A stretch of 33,603 nt of DNA. Origin: Terriglobales bacterium (GTDB lineage: Bacteria; Acidobacteriota; Terriglobia; Terriglobales; Acidobacteriaceae). The notes beneath the pieces were generated by a model, which searched no databases, was not told the DNA's origin, and saw nothing but the letters and a program-made list of their open reading frames with translations. A program made the translations under genes and the position numbers. Shown piece by piece: positions 10,014-14,950 of this stretch. The stretch spans positions 1 through 33,603 of the forward strand of contig JANWKU010000020.1 of NCBI GenBank assembly GCA_025451215.1. Direction: 5' to 3'. Every line of letters starts with the position of its first letter. Position 1 is the stretch's first letter.

Positions 10014-10442
10014 ATGAAATGCATACTTTGCGTGGATGACGATGCCTCCGCTTTAGAGCTGCGCAAGTTATTGCTCGGCGCAGCAGGGTACTCGGTCTTA
10101 ACGGCGGGCTCCGGCACCGAGGCGCTGGAAGTGCTGGAGAAGGGCGCCAACGTAGATTTGGCCTTGCTGGACTACATGATGCCGGGAATGAACGGGGATG
10201 AGTTGGCTGAGAAGCTTCGGCGCACGCATCCGGAAATTCCCTTGGTAGCGGTCTCAGCGGTCGGGCAATTGCCGCAGGCGTTCTTGAATATCCTGGACAG
10301 CCGGGTGCAAAAGGGGACAGGACCCCGAGGTCCTGCTTTCGACGGTTTCCAACGTGCTTGCGCGCTCCGGAAAAGATCAGGCCCGGAAAGGCGAGGCCCA
10401 GGCAAACGTTCCGCCAAGAACCATTCTGTGCGTGGAAGATGA
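10014..10442 (+). CDS. Response-regulator receiver domain, first of a tandem pair, frameshifted at its end
   Basis: A CheY-like receiver. From the ATG at 10014 it begins MKCILCVDDD (first strand and acidic pair), with phospho-acceptor Asp in LALLDYMMPGMNG, Ser in VAVSA and Lys in RVQKG. ATG 9984 is an alternative start; neither has a good ribosome site. After QKG at 10311-10316 the frame turns into low-complexity Arg/Gly sequence (GTGPRGPAFDG) that fits no receiver. The expected last helix, GQDPEVLLSTVSNVLAR, is found in the +1 frame and leads straight into the second receiver. Deleting one G from the AAAAGGGG run at 10309-10316 would join both into one protein of about 260 aa. I therefore see either a sequencing or natural indel, or a genuine split. 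Confidence 0.75.
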   Translation: MKCILCVDDDASALELRKLLLGAAGYSVLTAGSGTEALEVLEKGANVDLALLDYMMPGMNGDELAEKLRRTHPEIPLVAVSAVGQLPQAFLNILDSRVQKGTGPRGPAFDGFQRACALRKRSGPERRGPGKRSAKNHSVRGR

Positions 10443-10794
10443 GGAGTGGATTCTTACCCTGCGGGAGAAGCTATTCGAATCAGCAGGATTTGCCGTGCTG
10501 AAAGCGCGCTCTGGGGCCCAGGCGATGGAACTTTTCCGCGCGCACCATGTTGATGCTGTGGTACTGGACTATTTCCTTTCGGGGATGAACGGCACTGCGG
10601 TAGCCACAGAGATGAAGCGTTTGCGTCCTCGAATACCCATTGTGATGATGTCTGGCTTTGCATCCCTGCCCGGCGAAGGAGCGGTTGTAGACGCATGGCT
10701 GCGAAAGGGGGACGTGGAGCCTGAAGACCTTATCAAAGAAGTTTCCCGCCTCATTGAGCCTCGCGCCGGCACTCCACGGAGCGCCAACTTCTGA
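10354..10794 (+). CDS. Response-regulator receiver domain, second of a tandem pair
   Basis: A 146-aa frame from GTG 10354, but its frame is open further upstream and carries the missing last helix of the first receiver. The domain itself starts near RTILCVEDEEW and has phospho-acceptor Asp in AVVLDYFLSGMNG, Ser in VMMSG and Lys in WLRKGDVEPEDL, so all phosphorylation residues are present. It clearly resembles receiver 1 (DYxxxGMNG, RxxPxIPxV), pointing to an internal duplication. No output domain follows: the stop TGA at 10792-10794 abuts the ATG of the TonB receptor gene. It may act as a phosphate sink or relay for the CHASE8 kinase encoded at the end of the operon (inference). GTG 10354 has no good ribosome site, which favours the fused reading. 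Confidence 0.75.
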   Translation: MLARSGKDQARKGEAQANVPPRTILCVEDEEWILTLREKLFESAGFAVLKARSGAQAMELFRAHHVDAVVLDYFLSGMNGTAVATEMKRLRPRIPIVMMSGFASLPGEGAVVDAWLRKGDVEPEDLIKEVSRLIEPRAGTPRSANF

Positions 10795-12804
10795 ATGAAA
10801 AATCTCTGGCGCTGGTTGTACCCGATATTCCAATTGTTCGTTGTGGCGGTTGTGTTGTTCGCGGCTTGCGCTGCGACGGCATCCGCCGATCAATCGCAAT
10901 CCAGCCTGCAAACCAACAATAACCCTGTAAGGGATTTGACCCTGGAACAACTTGGGGACGTGCAGGTGACAACCGTCACCAAGGAACCGGAAGAGGTTTG
11001 GGACACGTCAGCCGCGATCTATGTGATTACGCAGGAAGACATCCGACGATCGGGAGCCACCGACATCGCCGATGTGTTACGGCTCGCTCCGGGAGTGGAA
11101 GTGGGACGGATTGATTCAAATACCTGGGCGGTAGGAATACGCGGCTCTGAAAGCAATTTTTCCAAGGCCGTGCTGGTGCTTATCGATGGGCGCAGCGTGT
11201 ACACGCCATTGTTCGCGGGCGTTTATTGGGATGTGCAGGATGTATTGCTCGAGAACATTGATCGCATTGAGGTGATACGCGGTCCCGGGGCGACAGTTTG
11301 GGGACCGAACGCGGCCGACGGCGTGATCAACATTATTACGAAAAAAGCCTCTGAGACGCAGGGAGTCATGGTTTCCGTGCTGGGCGGAAATGTGGACCAC
11401 ACCGTTGCCGAAGCTCAGTACGGCGGAAGCCGCGGCCAAAACTTTAACTATCGCGTCTATGGCAAAGGTTTTTTGCGAGGCCCCGAATTTCATACCGACA
11501 ATAATAATTTCGACAACTGGAACCAGGCACGCGGCGGATTTCGCACCGACTGGAACATAGATTCGCGTACCGATTTTACTCTTGAAGGAAATATGTACAG
11601 TGGAGATGCACCCCATGAAACCGGCCCAAGCGCATTTGTGGATTCAGTATCGGGAGGAGACATGCTGGGCCGTTGGACACGCACCATGGAAAACGGCTCG
11701 AACCTGTACTTACAGGCCTATTTCGATCGGACCATCCGTATTGGCCCGCTTTCCGGAGAAACTCGAAACACCATCGACATTGATTTTCTCCACCACCTGA
11801 AGTTCGGAGACCGCCAGGACGTCAGCTATGGCGGGGGCCTGCGCTGGAGTCCGAACCGCTACATCCCCGCGACACCGCTCTTGAACGTCTTGCCGGAAAC
11901 GAACACCGACCACATTTACAGTGCTTTTTTTCAGGATGAAATCCACTTCGCAGATGATCGATTTACGCTGACGCTCGGGGCCAAATTACAGCACAACAAT
12001 TTCAGTGGTTTTGATGTGCAGCCGACGGCGCGAGGTTTGTGGAAGTTCAATCAGCATCAAAGCTTCTGGGCCGCGGTCACCCGCGCCGTGACAACGCCTT
12101 CGCGCATTGAAGAAGGGATTCAGATCAACGCAGGAGAAATTTCGGTGGCGCCTCCCATTTTCTTGTTGGTTTCCGGTAATCCGCAATTTCAATCGGAAAA
12201 ATCAGTCGGCTATGAGGGCGGCTATCGTCAACTGCTAACGTCCAAGCTCTATGTGGATTTGGACGTGTTCCACAACAACTACGACAACTTGCAGAGTTTC
12301 GGCACGCCCACTCTCGTCGGGGACGATCTCACCATTTTTTATGAAAATGCGATTGCCGGAACGACCACCGGTTTTGAAATCGCTCCCAATTGGAATCCCA
12401 GACCGTGGTGGAAACTGTCAGGTTCCTATTCGTATGTTGGCATTGACATGCATGCAAACGCGCCGGGATCGGACATCAGTTCTACGGGGTCGGTGCCTAC
12501 GTATGAAGGTTCGAGCCCGGCTCACCAGGTAAAGATCCAATCCCGTTTCGACATTTCCAAAAGATTTGAGTTCGATCAGACGTACGGGTATGAGAGCGCC
12601 CTTCCCGCGCAAAAAGTGCGCGCTTATCAGACCATGGATCTGCGACTGGGCTGGAACCCCACCAAGGAATGGAACCTTTCTCTGGTTGGCCAAAACTTGT
12701 TTCAGCCCTACCACTTCGAATGGGGCACGGGGGATCCGAGTGAACTCCCCATTGGAATTCGCCGGGCAGCTTACGTGAAACTCAGCTGGAGAGCCGAGCG
12801 TTAA
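10795..12804 (+). CDS. TonB-dependent outer-membrane receptor
   Basis: A 669-aa outer-membrane beta-barrel receptor that takes up a ligand using TonB energy. A signal peptide (residues 1-31, likely cut after ASA) is followed by a short segment with VTTVTKEPEEVWDTSAAIYVITQEDI. The plug (about 55-165) contains ADVLRLAPGVEV, VLVLIDGRSVY, IDRIEVIRGPGATVWGPNA and ADGVINIITKK, all classic. The barrel has alternating aromatic strands and ends GIRRAAYVKLSWRAER. There is no carboxypeptidase-like N-domain. The ATG at 10795 directly follows the receiver stop; YfiR and a CHASE8 kinase follow. The ligand cannot be read from sequence; context suggests signalling as well as, or rather than, bulk uptake. Confidence 0.94.
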   Translation: MKNLWRWLYPIFQLFVVAVVLFAACAATASADQSQSSLQTNNNPVRDLTLEQLGDVQVTTVTKEPEEVWDTSAAIYVITQEDIRRSGATDIADVLRLAPGVEVGRIDSNTWAVGIRGSESNFSKAVLVLIDGRSVYTPLFAGVYWDVQDVLLENIDRIEVIRGPGATVWGPNAADGVINIITKKASETQGVMVSVLGGNVDHTVAEAQYGGSRGQNFNYRVYGKGFLRGPEFHTDNNNFDNWNQARGGFRTDWNIDSRTDFTLEGNMYSGDAPHETGPSAFVDSVSGGDMLGRWTRTMENGSNLYLQAYFDRTIRIGPLSGETRNTIDIDFLHHLKFGDRQDVSYGGGLRWSPNRYIPATPLLNVLPETNTDHIYSAFFQDEIHFADDRFTLTLGAKLQHNNFSGFDVQPTARGLWKFNQHQSFWAAVTRAVTTPSRIEEGIQINAGEISVAPPIFLLVSGNPQFQSEKSVGYEGGYRQLLTSKLYVDLDVFHNNYDNLQSFGTPTLVGDDLTIFYENAIAGTTTGFEIAPNWNPRPWWKLSGSYSYVGIDMHANAPGSDISSTGSVPTYEGSSPAHQVKIQSRFDISKRFEFDQTYGYESALPAQKVRAYQTMDLRLGWNPTKEWNLSLVGQNLFQPYHFEWGTGDPSELPIGIRRAAYVKLSWRAER

Positions 12805-12839
12805 CGGCGAATCATTTGGCAACAGATCACGTGGAGAGC

Positions 12840-13478
12840 ATGAATACTGCGGGCCATTGGTTGCATTTCGAGGGTAAATCGTTGGCAGCCCGGATTTCCC
12901 GCGCGCGGCGGTTCCGCTATGTGATTGCCGGTCTTTTGTGGCTATTCTCCCTTTGGTCATTCGTTTCCCTTTGTTCGGCGCAACTGGCGACGCACCCGAC
13001 CGAATTCCAGGTGGAATCCGCTTATCTATATAACTTTGGCAAGTTCGTCCAATGGCCAGCAGGCCGCGTGGCGGCTTCTGACTCGCTGCAAATTTGTTTG
13101 CTGGGCAAAGATCCCTTTGGCGCGATCCTCGATTCGACCGTGGCCGGAGAAAAAATTGACGGCCGCGCTATCACTGTGCGAAGGCTTTCCACCATCGATG
13201 GCTCCTCCGCATGCGGCATTCTGTTCATCAGCTCATCGGAAGAAGCACGGTTAAGCGTCATTTTGGCCAGCGCCGAACGTTCCGGAGCACTGACTGTAAG
13301 CGATATTCCACATTTTGCCGAACGCGGAGGCACAATCGGATTTGTTATACAACAGGGCCGCATCCGTTTTGAGGTAAACCGCGCCGCCGCGGCGCAAGCC
13401 CACTTAACGCTCAGTTCGGAATTGCTCAAGGTGGCAAGCAGGGTCATCAATAAACCCTCGCGGAAAGCGGCGCCATGA
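12840..13478 (+). CDS. YfiR-like (DUF4154) periplasmic protein
   Basis: From ATG 12840 (GGAG close upstream; TTG 12816 is the alternative) this encodes 212 aa. A basic N-terminus and hydrophobic stretch (about 28-47, cut after CSA) export it. The mature part has the DUF4154/YfiR hallmarks: VESAYLYNFGKFVQWP, ICLLGKDPFG, IDGRAITVRRL, CGILFISSSEE, LTVSDIPHFAERGGTIGFV and RIRFEVNRAAAAQAHL. In Pseudomonas, YfiR is the periplasmic repressor of the membrane enzyme YfiN, acting on its CHASE8-type sensor. Here the next gene, overlapping by ATGA, is a CHASE8 kinase, so this protein is its likely periplasmic regulator. I see only one Cys pair candidate (Cys in SSACGI and none near), so the YfiR disulfides are not evident. 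Confidence 0.9.
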   Translation: MNTAGHWLHFEGKSLAARISRARRFRYVIAGLLWLFSLWSFVSLCSAQLATHPTEFQVESAYLYNFGKFVQWPAGRVAASDSLQICLLGKDPFGAILDSTVAGEKIDGRAITVRRLSTIDGSSACGILFISSSEEARLSVILASAERSGALTVSDIPHFAERGGTIGFVIQQGRIRFEVNRAAAAQAHLTLSSELLKVASRVINKPSRKAAP

Positions 13479-14950
13479 GCCGCCCGCGCACACGCTCGAT
13501 TTCCAGCCGCCTGACTGTGATGAACATGATGGTGAGCGGCGCGGCGTTGCTGCTGGCGTGCATCGCCTTCTTTGCCTACGATCAAATCACCTTTCGCGAG
13601 GGTCTGGTGCACACTCTTTCGGCCCAGGCGCAAATCATCGCTTCCAACAGTGTCTCCGCGGTCCTGTTTAACGATCCGCAAACCGCAACGAACACGCTTT
13701 CAGCGCTGAAAAGTTCCAGCAACATCGCCTCCGCGGGCATTTTCACGGTGGACGATCGCCCCTTTGCGCAATATACCCGCACCGGCGAAAGCAAGCTTCT
13801 CACGATTCCCGCGCTTTCTGAAGGTCAGGTGGAGAGCTACCGATTCGGCACCAGTCACGTTCTTCTAGTGCGAAAAATTTTGTCCGAAGGGAAAGTGATT
13901 GGGTTTGTGTATATTCTGGCGGACCTGCACGAAATTGATAAGCGACTGGCGCGCTATGCGTTGATCGCAATCGTAGTGCTGCTGGTTTCATTGTTGTTTG
14001 CGTTGCTGGTCTCATCCGCGTTTCGCAAATCGGTGTCTCAGCCAATCGTGAACCTCGCCGAGATCGCTCGCCGGGTCTCCCGCGACAAGGACTACTCCAT
14101 CCGCGTCGCCGATGTTGGAGAACGCGATGAAGTTTCTGTCTTGATCGAGTCGTTCAACGAAATGCTGCGCGAAATCCAACTACGCGAGGGCGCGTTGCAA
14201 CAGGCGCACAATGAACTGGAAGACCGCGTCTCAGAGAGGACCCGTGAGCTGCTCTCCTCGAACCGGGAACTTGAGGCGTTCTCATATTCGGTTTCGCATG
14301 ATCTGCGCGGGCCGCTCGACGCGCTCAACGGCTTCACAAACCTGCTTATGCAGCAGCACGGAGAAAAGCTGAATGCTGGCGGGCGCGAACTGATTGAGCA
14401 CATTCGTACTGCGGGAAAGCGAATGACCGAACTGATTGAAGATCTGCTCAACCTGTCGCGTGTGAGCACCAGCGTCATGCATATGGAAAAAGTTGACCTC
14501 AGCAAGATTGCACATTCGATCGCAGAGGAACTTTGCCACAGCCATCCCCAGCGAAAAGTTGAATTTGTGATTTCCAACACGGAGAGTGCGCAGGGCGACG
14601 TTCGCCTGCTGCGAATTGTGCTTGAGAACCTGCTGCGGAATTCCTGGAAATATACCTCCGGGCATAAAGAGTCGCGCATTCAGTTTGGCTCAGAGGGAAA
14701 CAAGGGCCGGACTGTGTACTTCGTGCGCGATGACGGCGCTGGCTTCGATCCACGCTCCGCGACCCGTTTATTTCAACCTTTTCAACGGCTGCATTCCAAG
14801 GACGAGTTTCCGGGAAATGGAATCGGGCTGGCAACGGTGCAGAGGATTGTGCGCCGCCACGGAGGCGAGACCTGGGCCGTGGGCGCGGTGGAAAAGGGCG
14901 CGACGTTTTACTTTACCCTGAGCCCGCCGGCGGCGCAGCCACGCGCTTAA
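13475..14950 (+). CDS. CHASE8-HAMP sensor histidine kinase
   Basis: A 491-aa membrane kinase starting at ATG 13475, overlapping the YfiR gene by 4 bp. Layout: helix about 16-36; periplasmic CHASE8-like domain about 37-158 (AQIIASNSVSAVLFNDPQTA, TLSALKSSSNIASAGIF, VIGFVYILADL); helix about 161-183; HAMP about 182-235 (QPIVNLAEIARRVSRDKDYS); coiled coil about 236-268; HisKA with His275 in FSYSVSHDLRGPL; HATPase_c with NLLRNSWKYT, DDGAGFDP and GNGIGLATVQ. The sensory half matches YfiN, in which the output is GGDEF; here it is a phytochrome-type kinase. It ends the operon, whose own receivers are the natural phospho-targets. Confidence 0.94.
   Translation: MSRPRTRSISSRLTVMNMMVSGAALLLACIAFFAYDQITFREGLVHTLSAQAQIIASNSVSAVLFNDPQTATNTLSALKSSSNIASAGIFTVDDRPFAQYTRTGESKLLTIPALSEGQVESYRFGTSHVLLVRKILSEGKVIGFVYILADLHEIDKRLARYALIAIVVLLVSLLFALLVSSAFRKSVSQPIVNLAEIARRVSRDKDYSIRVADVGERDEVSVLIESFNEMLREIQLREGALQQAHNELEDRVSERTRELLSSNRELEAFSYSVSHDLRGPLDALNGFTNLLMQQHGEKLNAGGRELIEHIRTAGKRMTELIEDLLNLSRVSTSVMHMEKVDLSKIAHSIAEELCHSHPQRKVEFVISNTESAQGDVRLLRIVLENLLRNSWKYTSGHKESRIQFGSEGNKGRTVYFVRDDGAGFDPRSATRLFQPFQRLHSKDEFPGNGIGLATVQRIVRRHGGETWAVGAVEKGATFYFTLSPPAAQPRA

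Follow-up and report, generated by a model that had tools for sequence, protein, structure and literature searches.

Response regulators with two receiver (REC) domains in tandem are a recognised class, the FrzZ-like proteins (PMC4618731, where the FrzZ study of Inclan 2007 is cited). Proteins of this type carry the two REC domains with no other output domain, and the same layout, compared by layout alone, is found in intact orthologues of the gene described here. That gene is located in a window of 33,603 nucleotides, this being the whole stretch of DNA that was analysed, and all features of the window given below are on the plus strand. Within the window the FrzZ-type layout is obtained only if one base is skipped. 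The locus differs from the FrzZ type also in its partners, which are a TonB receptor, a YfiR-like protein and a CHASE8 kinase as opposed to the Frz chemosensory (CheA-like) set.

Programmed frameshifting is associated with genes such as prfB and dnaX. The present locus resembles these in that the change of frame occurs within an otherwise open coding region, but differs in that the break is not conserved in orthologues, nor is there a conserved slip site or stimulator. The likeness to frameshifted pseudogenes and to consensus errors in draft assemblies is closer, comprising an indel of one base within a short run, intact orthologues, the lack of decay and the presence of other examples in the genome; indeed, no feature was found that distinguishes the break in the window from these.

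Results

Position of the break and reading frames

A frame break in the receiver gene was confirmed. The frame of receiver 1 starts at ATG 10014 (or 9984) and encodes the in-frame part of the first receiver domain, from beta1 to the conserved Lys (10014 to 10313; PF00072, 5.3e-18), ending with RVQK at 10313. The break is situated at AAAAGGGGA (10309-10317), in which AAAAGGGG (10309-10316) is followed by an A at 10317, and where GGGGA contains one surplus base with respect to the orthologous frame. Past 10313 the receiver 1 frame continues as GTGPRGPAFDGFQRAC (GTGPRGPAFDG...), an unrelated tail of 42 residues that is like nothing in the orthologues, and then terminates at TGA 10440-10442 (tail and stop, 10314 to 10442). 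From 10315, the next frame encodes GQDPEVLLSTVSNVLAR, the linker and receiver 2, with no stop before that at 10792-10794. Skipping one base gives a single frame of 259 residues from ATG 10014, in keeping with the protein of about 260 residues that the earlier note had expected upon removal of one G, although the surplus base may equally be A10317. Since dropping either a G or A10317 restores the frame, and since the glycine codon at the site varies in orthologues (GGG in G243, GGC in G349 and GGA in G388), the surplus base is not assignable to the G run.

Both receivers belong to PF00072, scoring 65.6 and 62 bits where the curated cut-off is 30.2, and the acidic pair, Asp, Ser and Lys are present in each. 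The active-site motifs of receiver 1 are complete (CVDDD, LLDYMMPGMNG, AVSAV and QK), and its in-frame part is 49-58% identical to five fused orthologues. Receiver 2 (10417 to 10794; PF00072, 7.4e-17) is intact, with motifs CVEDEE, VVLDYFLSG, MMSGF and LRK, and shows 52-64% identity to the same proteins. A complete beta1-alpha5 fold in one frame is found in receiver 2 but not in receiver 1, the helix 5 of which is out of frame. This displaced helix (GQDPEVLLSTVSNVLAR, 10315 to 10365, in the frame of receiver 2) comprises 17 residues with 47-71% identity to orthologues, the match including GQDP, and leads into an inter-receiver linker (10366 to 10416) of only 10-27% identity. It had been claimed from the letters alone that the missing helix lies in the other frame and runs without a stop into receiver 2, and this was confirmed from 10315 to 10794. 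Conservation of helix 5 is on a par with that of the remainder of receiver 1, and hence no decay is apparent after the break.

The reading frames were also compared using a three-periodic coding model trained on 263 long ORFs from the window's own genome. Scores were positive for the receiver 1 frame over most of 10020-10319 and for the receiver 2 frame from 10320, and a Viterbi pass with seven states set the frame switch at base 10314. When single-base indels were introduced into long ORFs, the same procedure detected 233 of 300, with the position off by a median of 5 bases; among 200 unaltered ORFs it showed a switch in 9. Homology together with the codon statistics rules out a chance open frame downstream of the break. 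The main claim of the earlier note, namely that a tandem two-receiver gene is split by a one-base shift, is thus borne out by orthologues and codon statistics alike.

Orthologues of the receiver pair

Searching 398 genomes within the family recovered five unbroken fused orthologues of approximately 260 residues (in genomes G007, G243, G349, G388 and G313), all of which belong to one neighbouring genus within the family and not to the genus of the window. PF00072 is the only domain above cut-off in the G007 protein. The motif QKGQDP is identical in G243, G349 and G388, exactly at the point at which the gene in the window is broken. No further fused copies were found in order-wide (397 genomes) or class-wide (399 genomes) searches. 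The only congener, G001, gave no match comparable to this receiver pair, its best receiver being 33% identical, and consequently the change is not assignable to a particular branch within the genus. A scan of genome contigs with receiver 2 returned distant single matches only (35-40%).

Two relatives have a different arrangement. In G041 only the second receiver is present, ahead of its TonB receptor. In G127, which belongs to another genus, the receivers are encoded by two genes (L045 1400-2400, minus strand); receiver 1 retains helix 5 (KGHDPERLLSAITEALSRLEPEE, then a stop), and the GTG start of receiver 2 overlaps the stop of receiver 1 (GTGA), such that the split falls at the domain border and not inside the helix. 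This layout is either a natural fission or a pre-fusion form of the protein in the window. The break in the window was seen in no other genome searched, and no relative is split at that place; with the fused orthologues unbroken there and G127 split elsewhere, the break is unique to the window's assembly. The frame break and slip site are likewise not conserved among orthologues, five being unbroken at this place and one split elsewhere. A unique break, with neither a slip site nor a receiver 2 start conserved, counts against programmed frameshifting as well as a natural two-gene layout.

Conserved cassette

The receiver gene is followed by three intact genes: a TonB-dependent receptor (10795 to 12804; PF00593, PF07715), which starts directly after the receiver 2 stop, a YfiR/HmsC-like protein (DUF4154; 12816 to 13478; PF13689, 1.3e-43) and a histidine kinase with CHASE8-HAMP-HisKA-HATPase architecture in Pfam (13475 to 14950). 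The order of receiver, TonB receptor and YfiR-like protein is kept in all seven relatives compared, with the CHASE8 kinase coming next in the six whose contig extends far enough. The cassette kinase may be the one that phosphorylates the receivers. Within the cassette the receiver pair takes three forms, being fused, encoded by two coupled genes, or represented by the second receiver alone. A paralogous second cassette in the window's genome (L057, G000:C53) comprises a TonB receptor, a YfiR-like protein and a kinase at 44-53% identity, and carries a receiver protein of another type.

A frame-broken gene was observed in three of the eight cassettes inspected, which may reflect either the quality of the drafts or loss of the cassette. 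In cassettes other than that of the window the broken genes are different ones: in G007 the CHASE8 kinase (L063 8090-8125), and in G041 the TonB receptor, where the break is at a T6 run (L069 near 10445). Separately, a two-N assembly join in the TonB receptor of G349 (L065 13250) drops a plug stretch and shifts the frame.

Other frame breaks in the genome

A frame-switch scan of sampled stretches, totalling 436 kb of the window's genome, revealed at least two further genes that are broken. In L081, near 4313, a gene for a glycosyl hydrolase 16 appears to have been split by a frameshift in a T6 run. An OmpA-domain gene (L084 6089-6788, minus strand) likewise appears to be broken; it has a TGA in frame immediately ahead of GINFDFNSD, and its frame changes upstream of this. 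Given that these two genes are also broken, frame breaks are part of the background in this genome. Several other switches were dismissed by eye as natural gene overlaps, including those at L074, which resembles two adjacent trehalose-type glycosidases, and L086, which resembles fliF/fliG.

Discussion

It is very likely, from the orthologues and the coding statistics, that the break is an isolated event, and not a programmed one, in what was formerly a single REC-REC gene. The ancestral gene would have encoded a single REC-REC protein of approximately 260 residues at the head of the conserved cassette, and a one-base insertion in GGGGA (10313-10317) would then account for the broken gene in the window's assembly. 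The alternatives of a recent event or an assembly error, both of which had been put forward in the earlier note, fit a break that is unique, shows no decay around it and has intact orthologues. A recent mutation is considered to have a slightly better than even chance of being correct, whereas a consensus error has a substantial chance, somewhat short of even.

A tolerated or programmed slip, in which the ribosome or RNA polymerase skips a base at AAAAGGGGA with the aid of a hairpin, yielding both short and full-length proteins, is highly improbable. Coding constraint is still apparent in both frames, and the site does have a four-A plus four-G run, directly after which there is a perfect 7-bp stem with a 4-base loop (CAGGACC CCGA GGTCCTG, 10318 to 10335). 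However, four Gs make a short run, of which the window contains 59, and the hairpin is itself one of 18 stems of this type there. A stimulator would be expected to include a hairpin adjacent to the run, but the fold energy of this one is unremarkable relative to shuffles (z of -0.58 for 81 nt and -1.37 for 37 nt), and the stem is absent from the orthologue DNA inspected at the corresponding site. Moreover, none of the five fused orthologues changes frame at this position; indeed, every full-length orthologue found is single-frame there, which counts against the tolerated slip site suggested in the earlier note. One might speculate that the hairpin instead helped the indel to arise, either in replication or in sequencing.

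A natural two-gene layout, with receiver 1 bearing an altered tail and receiver 2 starting at GTG 10354 (10354-10356), appears similarly improbable. The coupled but separate receivers of G127 indicate that the family can do without a covalent link. G127, however, retains helix 5 and has a start that overlaps the preceding stop, whereas the window has helix 5 outside the receiver 1 frame and an overlap of 89 bases between the two frames. Upstream of receiver 2, its frame offers no ATG, GTG or TTG other than this GTG, which has no clear Shine-Dalgarno sequence and is a helix 5 codon that corresponds to Val or Ile in orthologues; it is not a conserved start. Orthologues split at the same break and with a conserved second start, which the earlier note had envisaged as the contrary case, were not encountered, the one split relative being broken at the domain border. 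Less probable still is a lineage-specific slip at AAAAGGGGA that, together with the hairpin, sets the ratio of single to fused receivers, as a state between the fused and two-gene forms. A phase-variable repeat was rejected, since four Gs in a row make a short tract of a common kind (59 in the window).

The one-off event in a formerly single gene would, if the break is real, have direct consequences for the receiver pair. Receiver 1 would be made without helix 5, although its phosphorylation pocket would be intact, and would probably be unstable or inactive. Receiver 2 could start only at the weak internal GTG and, being limited to this start, the cassette would lose most of its receiver output, such that the break would presumably entail a loss of function.

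The frame break observed here is an ordinary event and not a new recoding device, and has little significance beyond annotation, where an automatic caller would give two truncated receiver proteins in place of the one found in relatives. A by-product of the analysis is the conserved cassette itself, comprising the receiver pair, the TonB receptor, the YfiR-like protein and the CHASE8 kinase.
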